Below are positions 616 through 11,437 of a stretch of DNA of 64,000 nucleotides, in pieces (within the stretch, counting starts at the first letter, position 1; each line of letters begins with the position of its first letter). The notes beneath the pieces were generated by a model. The model ran no database searches, was not told where the DNA came from, and worked only from the letters and a program-made list of their open reading frames with translations. A program made the position numbers and the translations under genes. This DNA is from an uncultured Victivallales bacterium (GTDB taxonomy: Bacteria; Verrucomicrobiota; Lentisphaeria; Victivallales; UBA1829), in contig CALXSJ010000006.1 of assembly GCA_944391115.1 (NCBI GenBank), forward strand, positions 1 through 64,000, written 5' to 3'.

Positions 616-644
616 TTGACAAGACCGGGGACTTCTGTTATAAT
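616..644 (+). promoter_or_regulatory. Consensus sigma70 promoter of the GntR-SBP regulator
   Basis: TTGACA (616-621), 17-bp spacer, TATAAT (639-644): a perfect match to both hexamers at optimal spacing, 36 bases before the start codon at 680. The AT-rich stretch between the -10 and the start codon is where an autoregulatory operator would lie, but I see no clear palindrome. Confidence 0.8.
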
Positions 645-679
645 ATATACATATCAACATAACATGAGGAAGCATTGAT

Positions 680-2014
680 ATGGTTGTCGATGAAATAGAA
701 GCCTATCTGCGCAGACGCCTGCAGGAGAAAACACTGATTCCGGGAGACAAGCTTCCCAGCTATGCCGAACTGGAAGCCATGTTCCATACCTCCTACATGA
801 CGATTCAGCGCTGTCTGAAGAAACTGGAGCAGAAAGGGCTGGTCAAAATTGTTCACGGAGTCGGTTCGTTCCTGAACGGAGGAGAAGTTCTCGATGTGGA
901 CCTTTACCTGACCGCGACAACATTTGATTTCGAGGCGCTGCAGAAGATTGTGGATCGGATTTCCCGGGAAAACAATCTTTTTCTGAACATTCATCTGAAG
1001 CCCATGGGCAATGACAATGTGTGGTGCGTGACGGAACACAAGGTTGTCATTGCCGAAGCGGATCCCTGGCTGAAATCCTCCGGTTTTCTGCTGGATTATT
1101 CCATGTTTCCCGATTATGCCGATGTGATGGCGTCCATCCGGACGTGGTCCATGGAATTCAACAATCTCCAGCTTCCGTTTTATTTCACGACCTCGCAGGG
1201 CATGGTGAATCTTGAGATTCTGCGCAAGGTCGGATTCCGGAAACAGATCCGGGAATTTTCCGATCTTGCGTGGTGGGAGGAACTGGATCGGAAATGCAGG
1301 GCGTGCGGAGAATTTCCGGCGGTTGCCAATTTCACCCAGACGGACTTATGGCATTTTCCCGCTTTTGTGATGACTGTCCTGCTGATGATGCAGGAACGGC
1401 AGGATGTGAAAACGCTTTTCCGGATTCCCGTCTTTTCCGGAGAGATCGGGAAACGGGTTTTCCAGATCCTTGATACCTTCGGCGACAGGATGGATGCAGC
1501 GGATTTTCCGCTCGCCGGAGCGGTCAATCTTGATATCGGCTCATGGTTTGCCCTTCAGGCAAGACCGAAATTTCATGTTCCCGGCGATTCCTACCGGATC
1601 GTCCCGCTGAAGTGCGGCGGACATAAAATTCTCAAATACACGGCGATTGCCCTCCGGACCTTTGTCAATGCCTCCATTTCCGACAATGAAAAAAAACGGG
1701 TCTGGGAATTTCTGAAACATCTCCTTTCCAGAGACGTGCAGAAGGAGATTACCGCCATGAGCGGAGCCATCTCGTTCTGTGCGGAAATGAAACCGGAGGA
1801 CCATTCCTGGGTCAGCCGGGAAGATTACCTGCATTTCTTCCCGCGGGAGGGAGATCATCTGGTCAGCACCTTCCTGCTCCCTTCGGAACGGGTCGCCGTG
1901 CTCAGCGCGCTGTACGAGCAGTACCGCCATTTCGGATCGGATCCCGAAATGATCCGGCGGGTCATGGATGCAAAACTTCTGACGCTTTCCAATAACCTGA
2001 CGCAGATGCCCTGA
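680..2014 (+). CDS. GntR-family regulator with a solute-binding-protein-like sensor domain
   Basis: Predicted cytosolic transcription factor of 444 residues. Residues about 5-65 form a GntR winged helix: PGDKLPSYAELEA, then a recognition-helix-like MTIQRCLKKLEQKGL and the wing VHGVGSFL. The rest (about 72-440) does not look like the usual FadR, UTRA or LacI sensors. It reads like a family-1 extracellular solute-binding protein (maltose-binding type), with LPFYFTTSQGMVNLEILRKVGF followed by a helix-rich second lobe and an AIALRTFVNAS segment, but has no signal peptide. It probably senses a sugar or oligosaccharide and controls the pseudopilin and GH2-like genes directly downstream. The start is chosen from AGGAAG ahead of ATG 680. 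The HTH assignment is firm; the sensor fold is an inference from pattern. Confidence 0.75.
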   Translation: MVVDEIEAYLRRRLQEKTLIPGDKLPSYAELEAMFHTSYMTIQRCLKKLEQKGLVKIVHGVGSFLNGGEVLDVDLYLTATTFDFEALQKIVDRISRENNLFLNIHLKPMGNDNVWCVTEHKVVIAEADPWLKSSGFLLDYSMFPDYADVMASIRTWSMEFNNLQLPFYFTTSQGMVNLEILRKVGFRKQIREFSDLAWWEELDRKCRACGEFPAVANFTQTDLWHFPAFVMTVLLMMQERQDVKTLFRIPVFSGEIGKRVFQILDTFGDRMDAADFPLAGAVNLDIGSWFALQARPKFHVPGDSYRIVPLKCGGHKILKYTAIALRTFVNASISDNEKKRVWEFLKHLLSRDVQKEITAMSGAISFCAEMKPEDHSWVSREDYLHFFPREGDHLVSTFLLPSERVAVLSALYEQYRHFGSDPEMIRRVMDAKLLTLSNNLTQMP

Positions 2015-2228: not shown

Positions 2229-2822
2229 ATGCGGAAATGTTTCACTTTAATCGAATTGCTCGTTGTGATATCGATCATCGCGATTCTGGCATCTCTTCTG
2301 CTTCCGGCTCTGAACCAGGCGCGGAAGAAAGCGCAGACCATTGCCTGCGCATCCAATTTGAGGCAGGGGGGGATGGCGTATGCGCAGTATCTGAACGATT
2401 TTAACGATTTTTATCCGCCGGCATATTATCAGAAGTATTACACCTGGTATGTCAGCCGGTATGTGGGACCGGAAAGCAACTATCCGGTATTTTCCAGATG
2501 TCCGGGCTGGAACGCGGATTACGGAACGATCGGATGGATCACCTATTCGGTTGCATGGCTGAACGGGAACTGGCAATACGATATGTTCTATAAATGGAAC
2601 ATCTTTTCAAAATACAAGCCGTCTCCAAGCCGGGTCATTCTGCTGTTTGACGGAGTTGCGCAGCCCACGGATAAGAATCACTGCACCGCCGCGGAACGGT
2701 TCCGGAATGCCGCATGGGGACGGCATTCGGCCCGTGCCGCCAATGCGCTCTACTACGACGGAAGCGTCCGCCTGACGGACCGGAGTTATGCAAACGTCGA
2801 CACCAATGTTGTCGCTCAATAA
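2229..2822 (+). CDS. Pseudopilin-like protein, H-X9-DG type
   Basis: 197 residues. A very short leader (MRKC) precedes the type IV pilin N-terminus [16 protein letters not shown], a membrane helix with the usual Glu at +5 of the mature form. Position -1 is Cys, not the canonical Gly. After the helix come [13 protein letters not shown], the conserved C-x-x-N-L of this family (IACASNLRQ), a second Cys in a Cys-Pro pair (FSRCPGWN), and a C-terminal His..Asp-Gly motif ([16 protein letters not shown]), matching the processing-associated H-X9-DG domain family. GGAG precedes ATG 2229. The gene is 24 bases upstream of the large secreted GH2-like gene and is probably co-transcribed with it. Role unknown; probably membrane-anchored with its C-terminal part outside. 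Confidence 0.85.
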
Positions 2823-2846: not shown

Positions 2847-5800
2847 ATGAAACCCTCTTTTGCCGCACTTCTTTTCCCGGTTCTGGCGCTGTCCGCATAC
2901 GGCGCAAGGATCGAATATGAAGCTCCGAACGGGATTCCTCCCGTGGAATCCCCCGCCAGACGGCTGGACTGGAACCTGAACCGGGCGTATTCCGAAAAAT
3001 CGGGAGAACGCCTGCGGATTTCCCTCAACACCTACTGGAATTTCCTGCCGTGTGACAGCGCGGACAGAACCATTCCTCCCGACGATGCCGCATGGGGGTA
3101 TTTCATTGTTCCCGGCTACTGGCGCAGTTCCGGTCTCGGCGAAGCGATGCGTTCCGCCGACGGACGTGCCGTCCGGAAATTCAACGGGCGCCTTGTAACC
3201 GACTATCCCGCGGCATGGTACCGGAGAACCTTCAATCCGCCGGCCTCCATGAAAGGAAAAAAGGTCCAGCTCTATTTTGAACTGTTTTATTCCAATCCGG
3301 AAGTCTACATCAACGGAAGGAAAGTTCCGGTTCCCTCTTCTTTCACTCCGCGCTATCAGGTTCCGGTGGACTCCTTTCTGAAATACGGAGAGGAGAACAC
3401 CATTCATATCCGTGCGGAAATTCAGGGGAGCAAATATGTGAAACGCGGCGGAATCCGGGGCAATCTCTGGCTGGAAGCCCGGCCGGAACAGAATTTCGGC
3501 GAACCGGTCGTGGAGACCTCTCTCCGGAAAAGACAGATCTCCGTCGAATTTCTCCATTCCGTCCTGAAAGAGGGCTGCGGCACGCTTTCCGGCGCCATCC
3601 GGGATGCCGCGGACGGAAAAACGGTGCATGTCTTTTCCATGCCGTTCACGTCAAAGGTCGGGATTCCGTATGTGACGCCGAAACTCTGGAGTCCGGACTC
3701 TCCCGCGCTTTACTATCTGGACCTGAGCGTCAAAGCTCCGGACGGGAATGTGCTGGACGCGAAAAGCATCCGGTTCGGATTCCGGGAATTCCGGGTGGAG
3801 GGCGGAAAGTATCTTTTGAATGAAAAGCCGATCGCCCTGCATACGGATACGTCATGGCCCTCCTTCTGGACTCCGGAATGGAATCTGGAAGCAGATTTCG
3901 TGCGCAAGGCGTTCCGGACCTTGAAGAAGATGAATCTCAATTCCCTGTACGGCAAGTTCATCATGCTCTCCGACGCCTTTTTTGATCTTGCGGACGAGGA
4001 AGGCATTCTCGTCATCTATGCGCTGGACAGCATCGTCAGCAGCATTCATCGCGTTCCTGTCGATCAGTATATCGGCGAATTCCGCCGGATCGCGGAAGAA
4101 AACCGCACGGCCCGCTGTTTCATCAATCATCCCTGCAATATCGGAATCCTGCTGGATGTCTGGTACAATTATCACAAAGGCACCACGCATCCGGCCTATA
4201 TCGGGATGCGTGCGGACGCTTCCTCCCATCCGGAACCGGATGCGGACGGAACGTTCCGGAATGTTCCCGGCGGGGATCCGAATCTGAATCTGGAACAGCC
4301 TGCGAGGCGCAAAAAGGATCTGGACAAACTGACCGCGATCTGCCGCGAATATTTCCCCGCGTATGAACCGTTCACCGGAGCGGACGGCCATAACGGGAAC
4401 ATTTACGGGACCCATATCTACCATACCTGGAAAGCGCCGCTTGCGGAACTCGCCGCGCTGTTTTCCCGCTATTCCCGGACACGGGACATTCCGATTTTCG
4501 CCGGAGAAATGAACATCCCCTTTGCCGCCGCGTTTTCGGACATCCGGAGCTATCCGAACAAGCTTCCTCTGTTCAAGGAAAATGCGGCCCGTCTGCTGGG
4601 AAATCGGGCTTATTCCCTCAAGGGAATCTACACGACCTACGCATACAGCGGTTTTGAAAATGATTTTCTGGCGGGATCCCGCAACAGAGAGGCTCTGGAC
4701 AACAGGACCTATTATTTCCTGGGGGATCTGTACGGACTTCCTTTCCGGGAGTATGTCGAGCAGACGCTTTTCCCATGGCGTTACGACGGCATGAACGGAA
4801 TCGGATTTTTCGAATATGTGATGACCTCCCGTCTGGTCCTTGCCGCGCGGAGTTATCCGGCCGTGAATTTCCAGAAAGGCGATCTGACCCGTCCCGGCAG
4901 CAAGGTCGAATTCCAGCATGGAACCCATCACCGGCCGGTTTTTGAGGTGCTGGGGGATCAGCTGGATCTGCGCCCGAATCCGGTTACGGTTCCCTTCCTC
5001 CGGGGAACGGCAAAGCGCACCATGGACTTCGCCGGCGGAGGCAGGGACCGCTACGAAATCGACCATGCCTATTTCGGAGGAGAACTCCTCCGCAAACAGA
5101 TCGCCGTCATCAATCAGGCGGAGGAGGTACTTGCCGGAGAAGCGGAGATTTCTCTTCTTGATGAACGCCGGGCCTGCGTCGGTTCCGCAAAAATCAAAGT
5201 GCATGTTCCTTCCTTTGCCAACCGTTCGTTCCCGTTTGAAATCCGCGTTCCGGCAGCGGCGGGGCGGAGGGAATTCTCGCTGCGTGCCGTTCTGCGCTGG
5301 GGCGGAGGAAAACAGCGGGATCTCAACTGTTCGATGAAAGTGGAGGTATTTCCGCCTGTCAACAGTGCGGCCAACCGCCGGCGGACGGTCCGGCTGCTGG
5401 GAACATCGAATGAATTTGCCGAGGCCGTCCGCAATCTGGGCTTCCAGACGGAAATTGTGACGGATGCCACCGCCGTTCCGTCCGGATCGGTGGTGATATT
5501 CGGTGCGCATTCGCTGGAAAAGGCGCTCAACCGCGGGGTGTTCCAGACCCTGTTCTCCCGCGGGGTGAAGATTCTCTGCATGGAGCAGACATCGGAGGCT
5601 TCCTCGGAGCTGATGAAAACCCGTTCCCGCAAGGCGTTTTCCAACAGTTCCGGACATCCTGTCCTCCACGGTTTCAAGGATGCCGACTTCGCCAACTGGC
5701 GCGGCAGCAGAGCATCCGTACCCGGATATGAAAAGCCCCATTCCAATACCCAGTGGCAGGACTGGGGTGCGCGCAACATGGTGGCGGCGCATGTATTCCG

Positions 5801-7133
5801 CCGTCCCGCCCATGGGAATTTCATTCCGCTTCTGGTTTCCGGTTTCGATCTGTTCCAGACTCCGCTTCTGGAATACCGGACGGGGAAAAATGTATGGATC
5901 GCCAGTCAGCTGGAAATCTCGGCCCGGCTCGGAATTGATCCAGTGGCGACGCATCTTTTCAACCGCCTGGTGAACTATCTGGACTCCTGGCGTCCGGCGG
6001 CGGAAAAAACGGCCTTCTACGGCGGCAGGGAAGGGAAAAAACTGCTGGAAAAAATGCAGATCCGCTTCCGTGAACTGGAAACGGACAGACCGATTCCGTG
6101 GGATTCCTTCTCCACATTGATTGTATCCGATCCCGACTGGAAGTCGCTCAGGCGCCATGCGTTCGAGATCGCGGATTTCGTCTATGCCGGAGGAAACGTG
6201 CTCTATCTGCACACAGGAAAGGATTTCTCCGCGACATGGCTTCCGTTCGTTGTGGATCTGGGAGAATGCGGCAAGGCACGTCAGGCGCATGTTTCCGGAA
6301 CACCGGATGCCGTCTGGCGCCACGGATGGGACAAGGGCGATCTCTACTGGCATACCGCGCGGAATCTTCCCGCATTCCGCAATGTCCCCGAAATTGCGGA
6401 CGCGACGGATCCGGCGGTTCTTGTCCGATATCCCTACGGAAGTGGCAGTTTTGTTCTGGTCTCGATTCATCCCGACCGCTTCGGCGATACCCCGGCCTGC
6501 GGCAAAACGGTCCGGCTCCTGTCTGCGCTGGCAACCTCCCTCGGGATTGAACTGGGAGATCAGAACGTTTCCCCATACCAGTCGAACCAGTCCTTCCGCC
6601 TTGACCTGACCAACCGGCATTGGAAGTTTGCCCGGGATCCGCAGGATGCCGGACTGCGGGAACACTGGTTCGAGGGCAAAGGGAATCCCCCCTGGATCAC
6701 CGGGCAGATGACAGTTGCCGGAGAATATGTCCACACGGGAATCACATGGAAGAAATTCCTGGAGGAGGACTACCGCGGTGTCGGCTGGTACAGCATTGAT
6801 TTCGATCTGACCGCGGAGGAGGCCGCGCTGAACGATGTTTCCATTTCCTGTTACGATGTCTGGTCCGAGGACACCATGTGGATCAACGGGCGGGGAATCG
6901 GCACCTACGGGAAGCCCGGCGCGGACCGGGGATACCGCATCCAGTCCAATTTCCTGAAACCGGGGCGGAATACGCTTGTCATCCGTCTCAGGGACACCAG
7001 CGGCCGGGGCGGTCTCTGCGGCGCTTCGGTAATCCGTTCCGACGGATCGAAGCGGCGGCTTTGGAAAACCCCGTGGGTGAAAGGCTCCGTCCGGGATTAC
7101 GAGTATCCGGCGGACATGCTCCGGATGTATTGA
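2847..7133 (+). CDS. Giant secreted GH2-like protein
   Basis: 1428 residues with a signal peptide (residues 1-19, MKPSFAALLFPVLALSAYG). Residues about 45-210 resemble the GH2 sugar-binding jelly roll, then an Ig-like segment, then a TIM barrel from about 310. The barrel keeps the GH2 landmark NHP (427-429), but the position of the acid/base Glu (12 residues after the Asn) is Trp439; a nucleophile-like Glu554 lies in IFAGEMN. About 850-1230 looks like a ThuA/glutamine-amidotransferase-like alpha/beta region (VVIFGAH, GVKILCMEQT). Residues about 1255-1405 form a second jelly roll (GVGWYSIDFDL, WINGRGIGTYG). It could be an exo-glycosidase with relocated catalytic residues or a glycan-binding protein. 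AGGAG precedes ATG 2847. It follows the pseudopilin gene by 24 bases. Confidence 0.75.
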   Translation: MKPSFAALLFPVLALSAYGARIEYEAPNGIPPVESPARRLDWNLNRAYSEKSGERLRISLNTYWNFLPCDSADRTIPPDDAAWGYFIVPGYWRSSGLGEAMRSADGRAVRKFNGRLVTDYPAAWYRRTFNPPASMKGKKVQLYFELFYSNPEVYINGRKVPVPSSFTPRYQVPVDSFLKYGEENTIHIRAEIQGSKYVKRGGIRGNLWLEARPEQNFGEPVVETSLRKRQISVEFLHSVLKEGCGTLSGAIRDAADGKTVHVFSMPFTSKVGIPYVTPKLWSPDSPALYYLDLSVKAPDGNVLDAKSIRFGFREFRVEGGKYLLNEKPIALHTDTSWPSFWTPEWNLEADFVRKAFRTLKKMNLNSLYGKFIMLSDAFFDLADEEGILVIYALDSIVSSIHRVPVDQYIGEFRRIAEENRTARCFINHPCNIGILLDVWYNYHKGTTHPAYIGMRADASSHPEPDADGTFRNVPGGDPNLNLEQPARRKKDLDKLTAICREYFPAYEPFTGADGHNGNIYGTHIYHTWKAPLAELAALFSRYSRTRDIPIFAGEMNIPFAAAFSDIRSYPNKLPLFKENAARLLGNRAYSLKGIYTTYAYSGFENDFLAGSRNREALDNRTYYFLGDLYGLPFREYVEQTLFPWRYDGMNGIGFFEYVMTSRLVLAARSYPAVNFQKGDLTRPGSKVEFQHGTHHRPVFEVLGDQLDLRPNPVTVPFLRGTAKRTMDFAGGGRDRYEIDHAYFGGELLRKQIAVINQAEEVLAGEAEISLLDERRACVGSAKIKVHVPSFANRSFPFEIRVPAAAGRREFSLRAVLRWGGGKQRDLNCSMKVEVFPPVNSAANRRRTVRLLGTSNEFAEAVRNLGFQTEIVTDATAVPSGSVVIFGAHSLEKALNRGVFQTLFSRGVKILCMEQTSEASSELMKTRSRKAFSNSSGHPVLHGFKDADFANWRGSRASVPGYEKPHSNTQWQDWGARNMVAAHVFRRPAHGNFIPLLVSGFDLFQTPLLEYRTGKNVWIASQLEISARLGIDPVATHLFNRLVNYLDSWRPAAEKTAFYGGREGKKLLEKMQIRFRELETDRPIPWDSFSTLIVSDPDWKSLRRHAFEIADFVYAGGNVLYLHTGKDFSATWLPFVVDLGECGKARQAHVSGTPDAVWRHGWDKGDLYWHTARNLPAFRNVPEIADATDPAVLVRYPYGSGSFVLVSIHPDRFGDTPACGKTVRLLSALATSLGIELGDQNVSPYQSNQSFRLDLTNRHWKFARDPQDAGLREHWFEGKGNPPWITGQMTVAGEYVHTGITWKKFLEEDYRGVGWYSIDFDLTAEEAALNDVSISCYDVWSEDTMWINGRGIGTYGKPGADRGYRIQSNFLKPGRNTLVIRLRDTSGRGGLCGASVIRSDGSKRRLWKTPWVKGSVRDYEYPADMLRMY

Positions 7134-8330: not shown

Positions 8331-10694
8331 GTGAGAAAAATCATTGATTTCAAGAGCGGCTGGCTGTTCAGAAGAGAGTGGCGTCCGGAAATGTCTTCTC
8401 CGGCCCTGGAAGACTCGTCATGGGAAAAGGTCAGCCTGCCGCACGACTGGAGCATTGCCGGCGTGTTCGATCAGGATTCCCCCGCTTCTGTCCGGGGCGC
8501 CTATCTTCCCGCCGGAACGGGCGGGTACCGCAGGCATTTCACAATATCATATGATCCGGAGATTCATTATTCCATATATTTCGGAGGTATTTACCGCTGC
8601 TCGGAAGTGTATGTGAACGGGCACTATGCCGGCGGCCGGAAATGGGGATATATCTCCTTTTATGTGGATGTCACGCCGTTTCTGAAAGACGGTGAAAATC
8701 TGATTGCCGTTAAAGTCGACAATTCCAGTCAGCCCGGATGCCGCTGGTATACGGGAAGCGGCATTTACCGGAACGTCAGGCTGATCGAGCGTTCCCGGCG
8801 TTTGTTTTTTCCGGAGTGGAGCCAGTTTGCCGTATCCGGGACGCTTTGCGGCGGACGTGCCGCTGTCACGCTGCGGTATGCCGTGAAAAACAATACGGGC
8901 GCTCTTGTGGAATGTGATGTCGGACATATTGTAAAAGACGCAGAAGGAAAGATTGTCGCACAGGAGATTTCCCATCACCGGATCAGCAGCGGAATGCGCG
9001 TTTCCCTGAGCAGGAGTTTCTCCCTGGAGCAGGCACAGCTCTGGAGCCCGGATTCTCCGTATCTTTACACCTGGGAGACGACTTTGCGGGATGGCGCCCG
9101 GACGGAGGATTCTCAAATCGTCCGCTTCGGGATCCGGGATATGGTTTTTGACAGGGAGCGCGGTTTGATTCTCAACGGCAGGCCGCTGAAGATCAGGGGC
9201 GCATGCCTTCACAACGATGCCGGTTCTCTCGGGGCTGCGGGACATGTCAGGAGTTATCAGAGGCAGATCGCTTTTCTGAAGGAGATGGGATGCAATGCCG
9301 TCCGCACGGCGCATCATCCCTTTGACGAGTCCTTCCTGGATGTCTGCGATGAACAGGGCATGCTGGTTCTGGCGGAGGCGTTTGACGAATGGCAGGTTCC
9401 CGCCCGTGTCGCTCCTTTTTCCGACGGGGAGGAGCAATTCATTTCCGTGGACTACTACTCGAAAATATTTGATGAATGCCATGAACGAGATCTTTCCGAC
9501 ATGATTCTCCGCGACCGGAATCATCCGTCCATATTCATGTGGAGCATCGGCAATGAAGTTCCGCAGATGGGGAAATACAGCGGGGGGGCAATTGCCGGAA
9601 AACTTCAGGAAATCTGCCATAATCTGGATGATTCGCGTCCGGTTACCTGCGCGGTTGTTGCGGCGACGATGAACCATGACAATCTCAGGATTCTGGACAT
9701 CTGCGGATGCAATTATCCGGATGCCGCACAGACGGAGGAACTCCGGCAGCGTCATGGAAACAAACCTCTTCTGATTACAGAGTGTTATTCCGCCCAGATT
9801 CAGCGTCCCGTCGGCAGATATTACAGGGCGGATGAATACAATCCCTGCGCTTATTCCCGGCCCGGAGCCGCCGATTTCATCCGGCGGAAGGAAGACATGC
9901 ATGAAGGGATTGCCGCCTGGAAACTCATTGAGGAACGGGAGGATGTCATGGGGGGATTCATCTGGACGGGCTGGGATTATCTCGGAGAAACAACGCCCTA
10001 TGATTTCCCTGCGCATGTTTCGTTCTACGGGGTGTTCGACACCTGCGGTTTTCCCAAGGACGGATACTATTTCTACCGTTCCCGGTGGAGGCCGGAGCCG
10101 CTTGTTCATATCGTTTCCTCCTGGGACTTTCAACCGGGGGATCCCGTTGACGTCCGCGTGATTTCCAACTGCGAAGAAATGGAGCTTTTCCTGAACGGCC
10201 GTTCGGCGGGATGCCGGAGAGGAGGCCCCGTTCACTGCTTCCGGATGAAATATGAGCCCGGCATGCTGAAAGCCGTCGGCCGCTGGAACGGGAATGCCGT
10301 TGCGGAAGACCGGGTGCATACTTCCGGAACCCCTGCAAAGCTCCGTCTGAACGCTGAGAAATTGTCTCCGTGGATTGCGGACGGGAGCGACTTGCAGTAT
10401 GTGACCGTGGAAGTCACGGATCGGAACGGCAGCCGGGTTCGCAGCTGTCATGAGAAACTGACCTTTTCCCTGACAGGGCCGGCGTATCTGAAGGCGCTTG
10501 ACAACGGCGATCAGTTCAGTCTGGAACCGTATCAGGGACATTCCGAACGGAAGGCCTGCGCAGGACGCGCCCTCTGCATTCTGCAGGCGGGCTTTTCTCC
10601 GGGAACCGTCAGGCTGACCGTCGCTTCAGGGATGCTTTCCGAGGAAATAGAAATTGAAATCCATCCAGCCGGAGAGGAGATTGCTGCAAAATGA
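8331..10694 (+). CDS. Glycoside hydrolase family 2 protein, probable beta-galactosidase
   Basis: 787 residues from GTG 8331, chosen because AAGGAG lies 10 bases upstream; an in-frame start at 8265 would add 22 unlikely residues. Domains in order: jelly-roll sugar-binding domain (LPHDWSIAGVFD is a GH2 hallmark), Ig-like sandwich, TIM barrel, C-terminal sandwich. Catalytic residues are visible: acid/base Glu409 in MWSIGNE, after NHPS, and nucleophile Glu484 in LLITECYS. HHPFDESFLDVCDEQG and GWDYLGE are also conserved. No signal peptide, so probably cytosolic and acting on oligosaccharides after uptake. The stop overlaps the start of the pseudopilin gene by four bases. TATAAT at 8219-8224 may be its -10, but no good -35 is seen. 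Confidence 0.9.
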   Translation: MRKIIDFKSGWLFRREWRPEMSSPALEDSSWEKVSLPHDWSIAGVFDQDSPASVRGAYLPAGTGGYRRHFTISYDPEIHYSIYFGGIYRCSEVYVNGHYAGGRKWGYISFYVDVTPFLKDGENLIAVKVDNSSQPGCRWYTGSGIYRNVRLIERSRRLFFPEWSQFAVSGTLCGGRAAVTLRYAVKNNTGALVECDVGHIVKDAEGKIVAQEISHHRISSGMRVSLSRSFSLEQAQLWSPDSPYLYTWETTLRDGARTEDSQIVRFGIRDMVFDRERGLILNGRPLKIRGACLHNDAGSLGAAGHVRSYQRQIAFLKEMGCNAVRTAHHPFDESFLDVCDEQGMLVLAEAFDEWQVPARVAPFSDGEEQFISVDYYSKIFDECHERDLSDMILRDRNHPSIFMWSIGNEVPQMGKYSGGAIAGKLQEICHNLDDSRPVTCAVVAATMNHDNLRILDICGCNYPDAAQTEELRQRHGNKPLLITECYSAQIQRPVGRYYRADEYNPCAYSRPGAADFIRRKEDMHEGIAAWKLIEEREDVMGGFIWTGWDYLGETTPYDFPAHVSFYGVFDTCGFPKDGYYFYRSRWRPEPLVHIVSSWDFQPGDPVDVRVISNCEEMELFLNGRSAGCRRGGPVHCFRMKYEPGMLKAVGRWNGNAVAEDRVHTSGTPAKLRLNAEKLSPWIADGSDLQYVTVEVTDRNGSRVRSCHEKLTFSLTGPAYLKALDNGDQFSLEPYQGHSERKACAGRALCILQAGFSPGTVRLTVASGMLSEEIEIEIHPAGEEIAAK

Positions 10695-11437
10695 AAAAGG
10701 CTTTCCCGAAAAACAGGAAGACAAGGGGCAGGGATCTGCGGAAGACTTTTACACTGATAGAACTGCTTATGGTGACAGGAATTATTGCCGTTCTTGCGGG
10801 AATGCTCCTGCCCGCTCTGAAAAACGTCAGAACCCGGGCCAGGGCGATTCAATGCGTGTCAAACCTGAAGAATGTCTTGACCTATCACCAGTTCTATGTT
10901 GACGATCATGCCGGATACACAATGGATGAAGGCGCCCCCGCGCCATGGCAGCCGACCGCGGCGCTCTGGTGGATCGACTATGTCAATATTCTGTATCTCA
11001 GGAGGAATACTTCGTCTGCCGAAGCCGGCCTTTCCATGTTCCCGAAGTTCAGTCTGTGCCCCTCGTTTGCCGGAAGCAACGCCAGAAAACATTCCTATGC
11101 GACAAACATCAACACAAGAAGCAGAAAAATCACCAGCTTCCGCAGACCCCCGTCCGGACTTTACTGGACCATGGAATATTCCTGCAATACGGCTCCCGCC
11201 CAGTGGCCCGGAGCCGCTCATGCGGCGTCCCCCGCGCAATATGTTCCCGGAGTCGGGCGTTACTGCACGGCTGTTCAGAAATACACCATGCCGGAAGATG
11301 AAAGTTTCTATATGCATGGGAGGCATGGCCTCAATATTGCAATGGGATTCGCGGACGGTCATGCGGATGCCTCTCATTCGCCATTGCGGGTCAAGGAGGC
11401 CCGTTCAAAAGAACCGAAATCCTGGGATATCCAGTAA
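10691..11437 (+). CDS. Pseudopilin-like protein, H-X9-DG type
   Basis: 248 residues. A 19-residue basic leader precedes FTLIELLMVTGIIAVLAG; Glu +5 is present and residue -1 is Thr. Family landmarks follow: LLPALKNVRTRARAIQ, Cys-x-x-Asn-Leu (QCVSNLKN), Cys-Pro (FSLCPSFAG) and GRHGLNIAMGFADGH, in which nine residues separate the His from Asp-Gly. Its ATG lies inside the TGA of the GH2 gene (ATGA overlap), implying translational coupling, and the secreted DUF4838 gene starts 43 bases downstream. It thus sits between a cytosolic and an exported enzyme in one operon. Confidence 0.85.
   Translation: MKKAFPKNRKTRGRDLRKTFTLIELLMVTGIIAVLAGMLLPALKNVRTRARAIQCVSNLKNVLTYHQFYVDDHAGYTMDEGAPAPWQPTAALWWIDYVNILYLRRNTSSAEAGLSMFPKFSLCPSFAGSNARKHSYATNINTRSRKITSFRRPPSGLYWTMEYSCNTAPAQWPGAAHAASPAQYVPGVGRYCTAVQKYTMPEDESFYMHGRHGLNIAMGFADGHADASHSPLRVKEARSKEPKSWDIQ

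Follow-up and report, generated by a model that had tools for sequence, protein, structure and literature searches.

A GntR-type regulator of Victivallales with a sensor domain related to family-1 sugar-binding proteins

What can a one-component regulator sense when its DNA-binding head is readily recognized and the rest of the protein, searched alone against Pfam and NCBIfam (residues 71-444), matches no model? This question is raised by a gene near one end of contig CALXSJ010000006.1 of an uncultured Victivallales bacterium (assembly GCA_944391115.1), of which we analyzed positions 1 to 64,000, hereafter the window. The gene and its parts are the following:

680..2014, + strand: GntR-SBP regulator gene, 444 aa (ORF with ATG start; close copies and a paralogue; family alignment)
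689..871, + strand: GntR winged-helix DNA-binding domain, residues 4-64 (PF00392, E 1.7e-14, above the cut-off)
890..2011, + strand: sensor domain, residues 71-444, homologous to family-1 sugar-binding proteins (hhalign and sub-threshold PDB matches)
1544..1546, + strand: codon of Trp289, the tryptophan of the 'GSW' motif and a candidate for stacking on the ligand (family and SBP alignments)

The reading frame is a genuine gene, since copies that are 91% and 88% identical are present in two other genomes, and since 28 full-length relatives align with it from the helix-turn-helix (HTH) through the C-terminus. A second copy in the same genome is 44% identical. The sensor was matched in 12 of 148 related genomes, its own genome counted, and a profile search over the class gave a match in 13 of 197 genomes; viral contigs searched with a nine-row alignment yielded no relative. 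In total, 30 places were gathered from its own and the related genomes, of which two were left out of the 28-row alignment of full-length proteins, namely L051, which nearly duplicates L045, and L054, which is cut by a contig end; a 29-row alignment of the sensor omitted L051. Only 679 bases lie upstream of the gene before the contig ends.

The GntR helix-turn-helix that the first-pass annotation had read at the start of the 444-residue protein was confirmed by the PF00392 match, and the N-terminal position of this winged helix, which was found in all 28 aligned family members, places the protein in the GntR superfamily. The helix-turn-helix occupies the place where family-1 sugar-binding proteins have a signal peptide or a lipobox. 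No export signal was found at the N-terminus, and the most hydrophobic stretch of 19 residues averages a hydropathy of only 1.26. The sensor had also been described as unlike the LacI-type fold of three other GntR regulators in the window (31782, 45569 and 56661), and this distinction holds: those three carry Peripla_BP_3 (E 2.2e-5, just under the Pfam cut-off, 2.5e-6 and 9.3e-10, respectively), which is absent from the 680-2014 protein. Regulators of the GntR and Peripla_BP_3 type resemble it in combining the same HTH family with a binding-protein-like sensor, but their sensor is of the type I periplasmic-binding kind, and its profile similarity to the sensor studied here is nil (0.1%).

Three routes of sequence comparison agree on the origin of the sensor, and we therefore assign it to the family-1 sugar-binding proteins, as the earlier annotation had suspected, and not to the LacI-type, UTRA or FCD sensors. 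Firstly, the sensor profile was compared by hhalign with a set of 24 sugar-binding proteins of the class, picked by PF01547 and mostly having lipoprotein-like starts, which gave 93.1% (P 3.2e-7 over 208 columns); the same comparison with the reversed sensor profile as a control gave 0.1%. This set was drawn from 25 prepared proteins by excluding L131, a frame without an N-terminus, and it does not contain L082, which was first listed as a solute-binding protein (SBP) and proved to be a GntR fusion. Secondly, a search of the PDB (177,635 sequences) with the sensor profile listed five entries at sub-threshold E-values of 0.19-0.51. Each of them is a sugar- or substrate-binding protein, and two appear to be one and the same. 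Thirdly, single-sequence Pfam scans matched SBP_bac_8 in 8 of the 28 members, with a best E of 0.0051, below the cut-off. Other candidate homologues were rejected on their hhalign values: the LacI-type sensors (only 0.1%), a set of SBPs that we take to be polyamine-type from their typical N-terminus (only 0.1%), and the prepilins (only 0.2%).

It should be noted that the homology is remote, because a plain SBP profile gives the 680-2014 protein an E-value of only 4.6. The link to the SBPs therefore depends on family profiles, and the protein on its own reaches no SBP model. The C-terminal part could alternatively be a known GntR effector (LacI-type, UTRA, FCD or aminotransferase) that has diverged past recognition, or an unrelated new fold, and this reading is in keeping with the absence of any model match for residues 71-444 and with the pLDDT of the predicted models, which was too low for use: 38.5 for a single-sequence model and 35.9 when three near-identical sequences were in the alignment. 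We nevertheless regard it as very improbable: hhalign gave 0.1% against the LacI-type sensors as opposed to 93-98% against the SBP sets, and none of these effector domains is among the 25 shown of the 34 Pfam families matched by the 28 members. On the basis of homology, we infer that the family-1-derived sensor adopts a bilobed type II fold.

A group of other GntR-SBP proteins connects the two ends of this comparison. The sensor family profile reaches L098 at E 2.7e-4, and with GntR as well as with SBP_bac_8, L098 and L082 each score above the Pfam cut-off. Together with six proteins of the same genome as the regulator, they form a bridge set of eight other GntR-SBP sensors. The sensor profile matched this set at 97.7% (P 1.4e-12), the set matched the SBPs at 99.3% (P 3e-20) and the LacI-type sensors at 0.1%, and a PDB search with the bridge profile returned sugar-binding SBPs from E 1.2e-15, with an arabino-oligosaccharide-binding protein on top. 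These values make the chain of homology from the 680-2014 family through the bridge set to the SBPs a firm one. Both a GntR and an SBP family were likewise found above the cut-off in L204, from another family of the phylum, in L211, from another family of the class, and in L200, from the same order. L082, L098, L200, L204 and L211 have the same architecture as the 680-2014 regulator, but are nearer to ordinary SBPs, whereas the family of the latter is a diverged branch that was found, among the 148 related genomes, only within the same order.

The next question is whether such a diverged sensor still binds a ligand. Homology with the family-1 ABC sugar-binding proteins (maltose-binding type; SBP_bac_1 and SBP_bac_8) includes common motifs such as 'GSW', whose tryptophan in the regulator, Trp289, is invariant in both the 28-row and the 29-row family alignments. 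The family motif aligns with 'GSW/GTW' of the SBPs, where tryptophan is the commonest residue of the column (21 of the 24 SBPs), and the matching tryptophan of maltose-binding protein presumably stacks on the sugar. An SBP relative that has given up small-ligand binding and serves in dimerization, or in contacts with a partner protein (a transporter, for instance, or a second SBP), could explain the strong divergence expressed in the E-value of 4.6. Such a role would also fit the surroundings of the gene: family-1 sugar-binding proteins are accompanied by ABC permease genes, whereas no ABC permease or transporter gene was found among the five downstream genes that were scanned. The conservation of the motif tryptophan, which equals the commonest SBP residue, argues against such a loss, as do the carbohydrate-related neighbourhoods described below, and we consider it unlikely.

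Two further genes on the same strand follow the regulator:

2229..2822, + strand: prepilin-type (pseudopilin-like) gene, following the regulator in the cassette (PF07963, E 2.4e-5)
2847..7133, + strand: gene for a glycoside hydrolase family 2-like protein of 1428 aa with a signal-peptide-like start, the likely target gene (PF02837, PF00703, PF21467)

The order of regulator, prepilin-type gene and GH2-like gene is kept in both close relatives (L060 and L061). Across the 22 loci for which gene order was counted, with none excluded, a prepilin-type gene is among the first three same-strand downstream genes in 16, mostly beside a large glycosidase-like gene, and is absent from these three positions in the other six. 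It comes first among the same-strand downstream genes in 12 of the 22 loci, or in 11 under the rule of the control, in which an intervening frame on the opposite strand disqualifies; in this control, which was drawn from 20 regions including the window, a prepilin-type gene came next after 9 of 184 other genes. Stop and start codons overlap by four bases in 5 of the 22 loci. The glycosidase families vary from locus to locus. Nine large neighbour proteins were scanned, and six of them show at least a weak match to carbohydrate families (GH2, GH42, GH39, GH5 and carbohydrate-binding modules; these groups overlap, GH39-like and module matches occurring within single proteins), one matches DUF4838, one has only a match to the lectin-like Laminin_G_3, below the cut-off, and two have no Pfam match at E 0.001. 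This association of genes suggests an autoregulated glycan-degradation cassette, against which count the six loci with no prepilin-type gene in these positions, the varying glycosidase families and the two unmatched neighbours. Prepilin-type genes lie at positions 2229-2822 and 10691-11437 of the window, and, together with those of the 16 related loci, form a recurrent cassette with glycosidase-like genes and regulators.

Homology and gene neighbourhood together would point to an oligosaccharide as the ligand. The ligands of type II binding proteins are diverse, however, and a sensor of SBP origin could bind something other than a sugar (for instance a polyamine, a sugar acid or some other small metabolite) and act on distant genes instead of its own operon. 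The profile match to the sugar-type SBPs, as opposed to 0.1% for the polyamine-type set, and the GH2, GH42 and DUF4838 genes among the neighbours weigh against this reading, which we hold to be quite improbable; the result of the regulon search given below is compatible with it.

The DNA preceding the gene contains two elements that may be relevant to its control:

616..644, + strand: promoter-like -35 TTGACA (616-621) and -10 TATAAT (639-644) with a 17-base spacer (sequence reading; kept in both close copies)
637..682, + strand: conserved block spanning the -10 element through the start codon, a candidate operator or RNA control element (comparison with the close copies)

The block is nearly identical in the window and the two close relatives, while the DNA further upstream diverges, and it contains an inverted repeat, CATATCAA (650-657) and TTGATATG (675-682). 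Since the repeat overlaps the start codon, it is in part conserved for other reasons; the candidate operator is based on three close relatives and covers bases of the ribosome site and of the coding sequence. A search of the genome with the 20-base upstream core, allowing up to three mismatches, found the gene's own site alone. The occurrence of the core once in the genome means that no regulon is visible in either direction, which is a point in favour of a regulator with distant targets.

Taken together, the 680-2014 protein is likely a one-component regulator with a cytosolic, family-1-derived sensor for a glycan fragment, which controls its own operon. In the mechanism we propose, the sensor behind the N-terminal GntR winged helix would derive from ABC sugar-binding proteins of family 1 and have lost their export signal, so that the protein would stay in the cytosol. 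The neighbouring glycosidase, which is probably exported, would make a glycan fragment that is taken up by the cell. On binding, this fragment would stack on Trp289 and bring the two lobes of the sensor together, and the closure would change the grip of a putative dimer on the DNA at its own promoter. The altered grip would then switch the operon that comprises the regulator, the prepilin-type gene and the glycosidase gene, and the ligand may either induce or repress it.

SgrR already exemplifies the principle of coupling an HTH to a solute-binding domain, and the pairing of a GntR head with a family-1 sensor appears to be new. Neither SgrR nor its relative DsvR is known to have an HTH of the GntR family. 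Their SBP part belongs to family 5 (SBP_bac_5), which was not matched in the 680-2014 protein by Pfam, while its own sensor is of family 1. According to reports on these proteins, both are one-component regulators that, as here, combine DNA binding at the N-terminus with a solute-binding-protein domain, and a sugar-type signal is proposed for them (PMC13060122, PMC7786190); DsvR is described there with an SBP_bac5 domain (PMC13060122). The literature searched contained no paper on a GntR head fused to a family-1 SBP; most subscription papers lay outside its scope, which makes this weak evidence of novelty. As the principle exists in SgrR and LacI, what is gained is the new combination and a sensor class of fair size, and not a new principle.

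The genome of the regulator contains 65 places with PF00392 in 3.66 Mb, a very large expansion of GntR proteins that mostly have LacI-type sensors. A census of 64 of these places, one frame of 118 residues being excluded, assigned a LacI-type sensor to 50 (E <= 3e-6, with a profile built from 21 of the genome's own GntR proteins) and an SBP-type sensor to eight, namely the 680-2014 gene, L002, L010, L019, L150, L162, L168 and L179, which look like four sequence groups; the remaining six fit neither type. L179 (contig C3, from position 133693) has an in-frame TAG within the HTH, reflecting a decayed gene or a sequencing error, and only the portion after this stop was used in the census. Among the six proteins with neither sensor type are those of L159 (271-3015, + strand, contig C5) and L161 (413-3106, - strand, contig C14), in which a GntR helix precedes the whole architecture of a GH38 alpha-mannosidase; these proteins have 915 and 898 residues, and their GH38 N-terminal and middle domains score above the Pfam cut-off. 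It is possible that the GH38-like part is an enzyme-like domain used as a sensor, or that the protein is a DNA-bound enzyme.

A broader view, which we put forward tentatively, is that the phylum may have repeatedly recycled carbohydrate-handling proteins, maltose-binding-type domains several times and even whole GH38 mannosidases, as cytosolic GntR sensors, so that every glycan-degrading cassette would have an oligosaccharide sensor of its own, drawn from the machinery of import or digestion. As for the 680-2014 regulator itself, the proposed function, if verified, would move oligosaccharide recognition, which is normally performed outside the cell by transport proteins, into a cytosolic gene switch. 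This would connect particular glycosidase cassettes with the fragment that controls them, would make the search for ligands of poorly known glycan cassettes testable through one soluble protein, and would offer a natural GntR-SBP scaffold for biosensors.

A fusion of another kind was observed in the same genome, where L062 (contig C7, from position 110314) has a sugar-binding protein and an apparent ABC permease within one frame of 897 residues. Frames of similar length (820-1070 residues) recur across the class.
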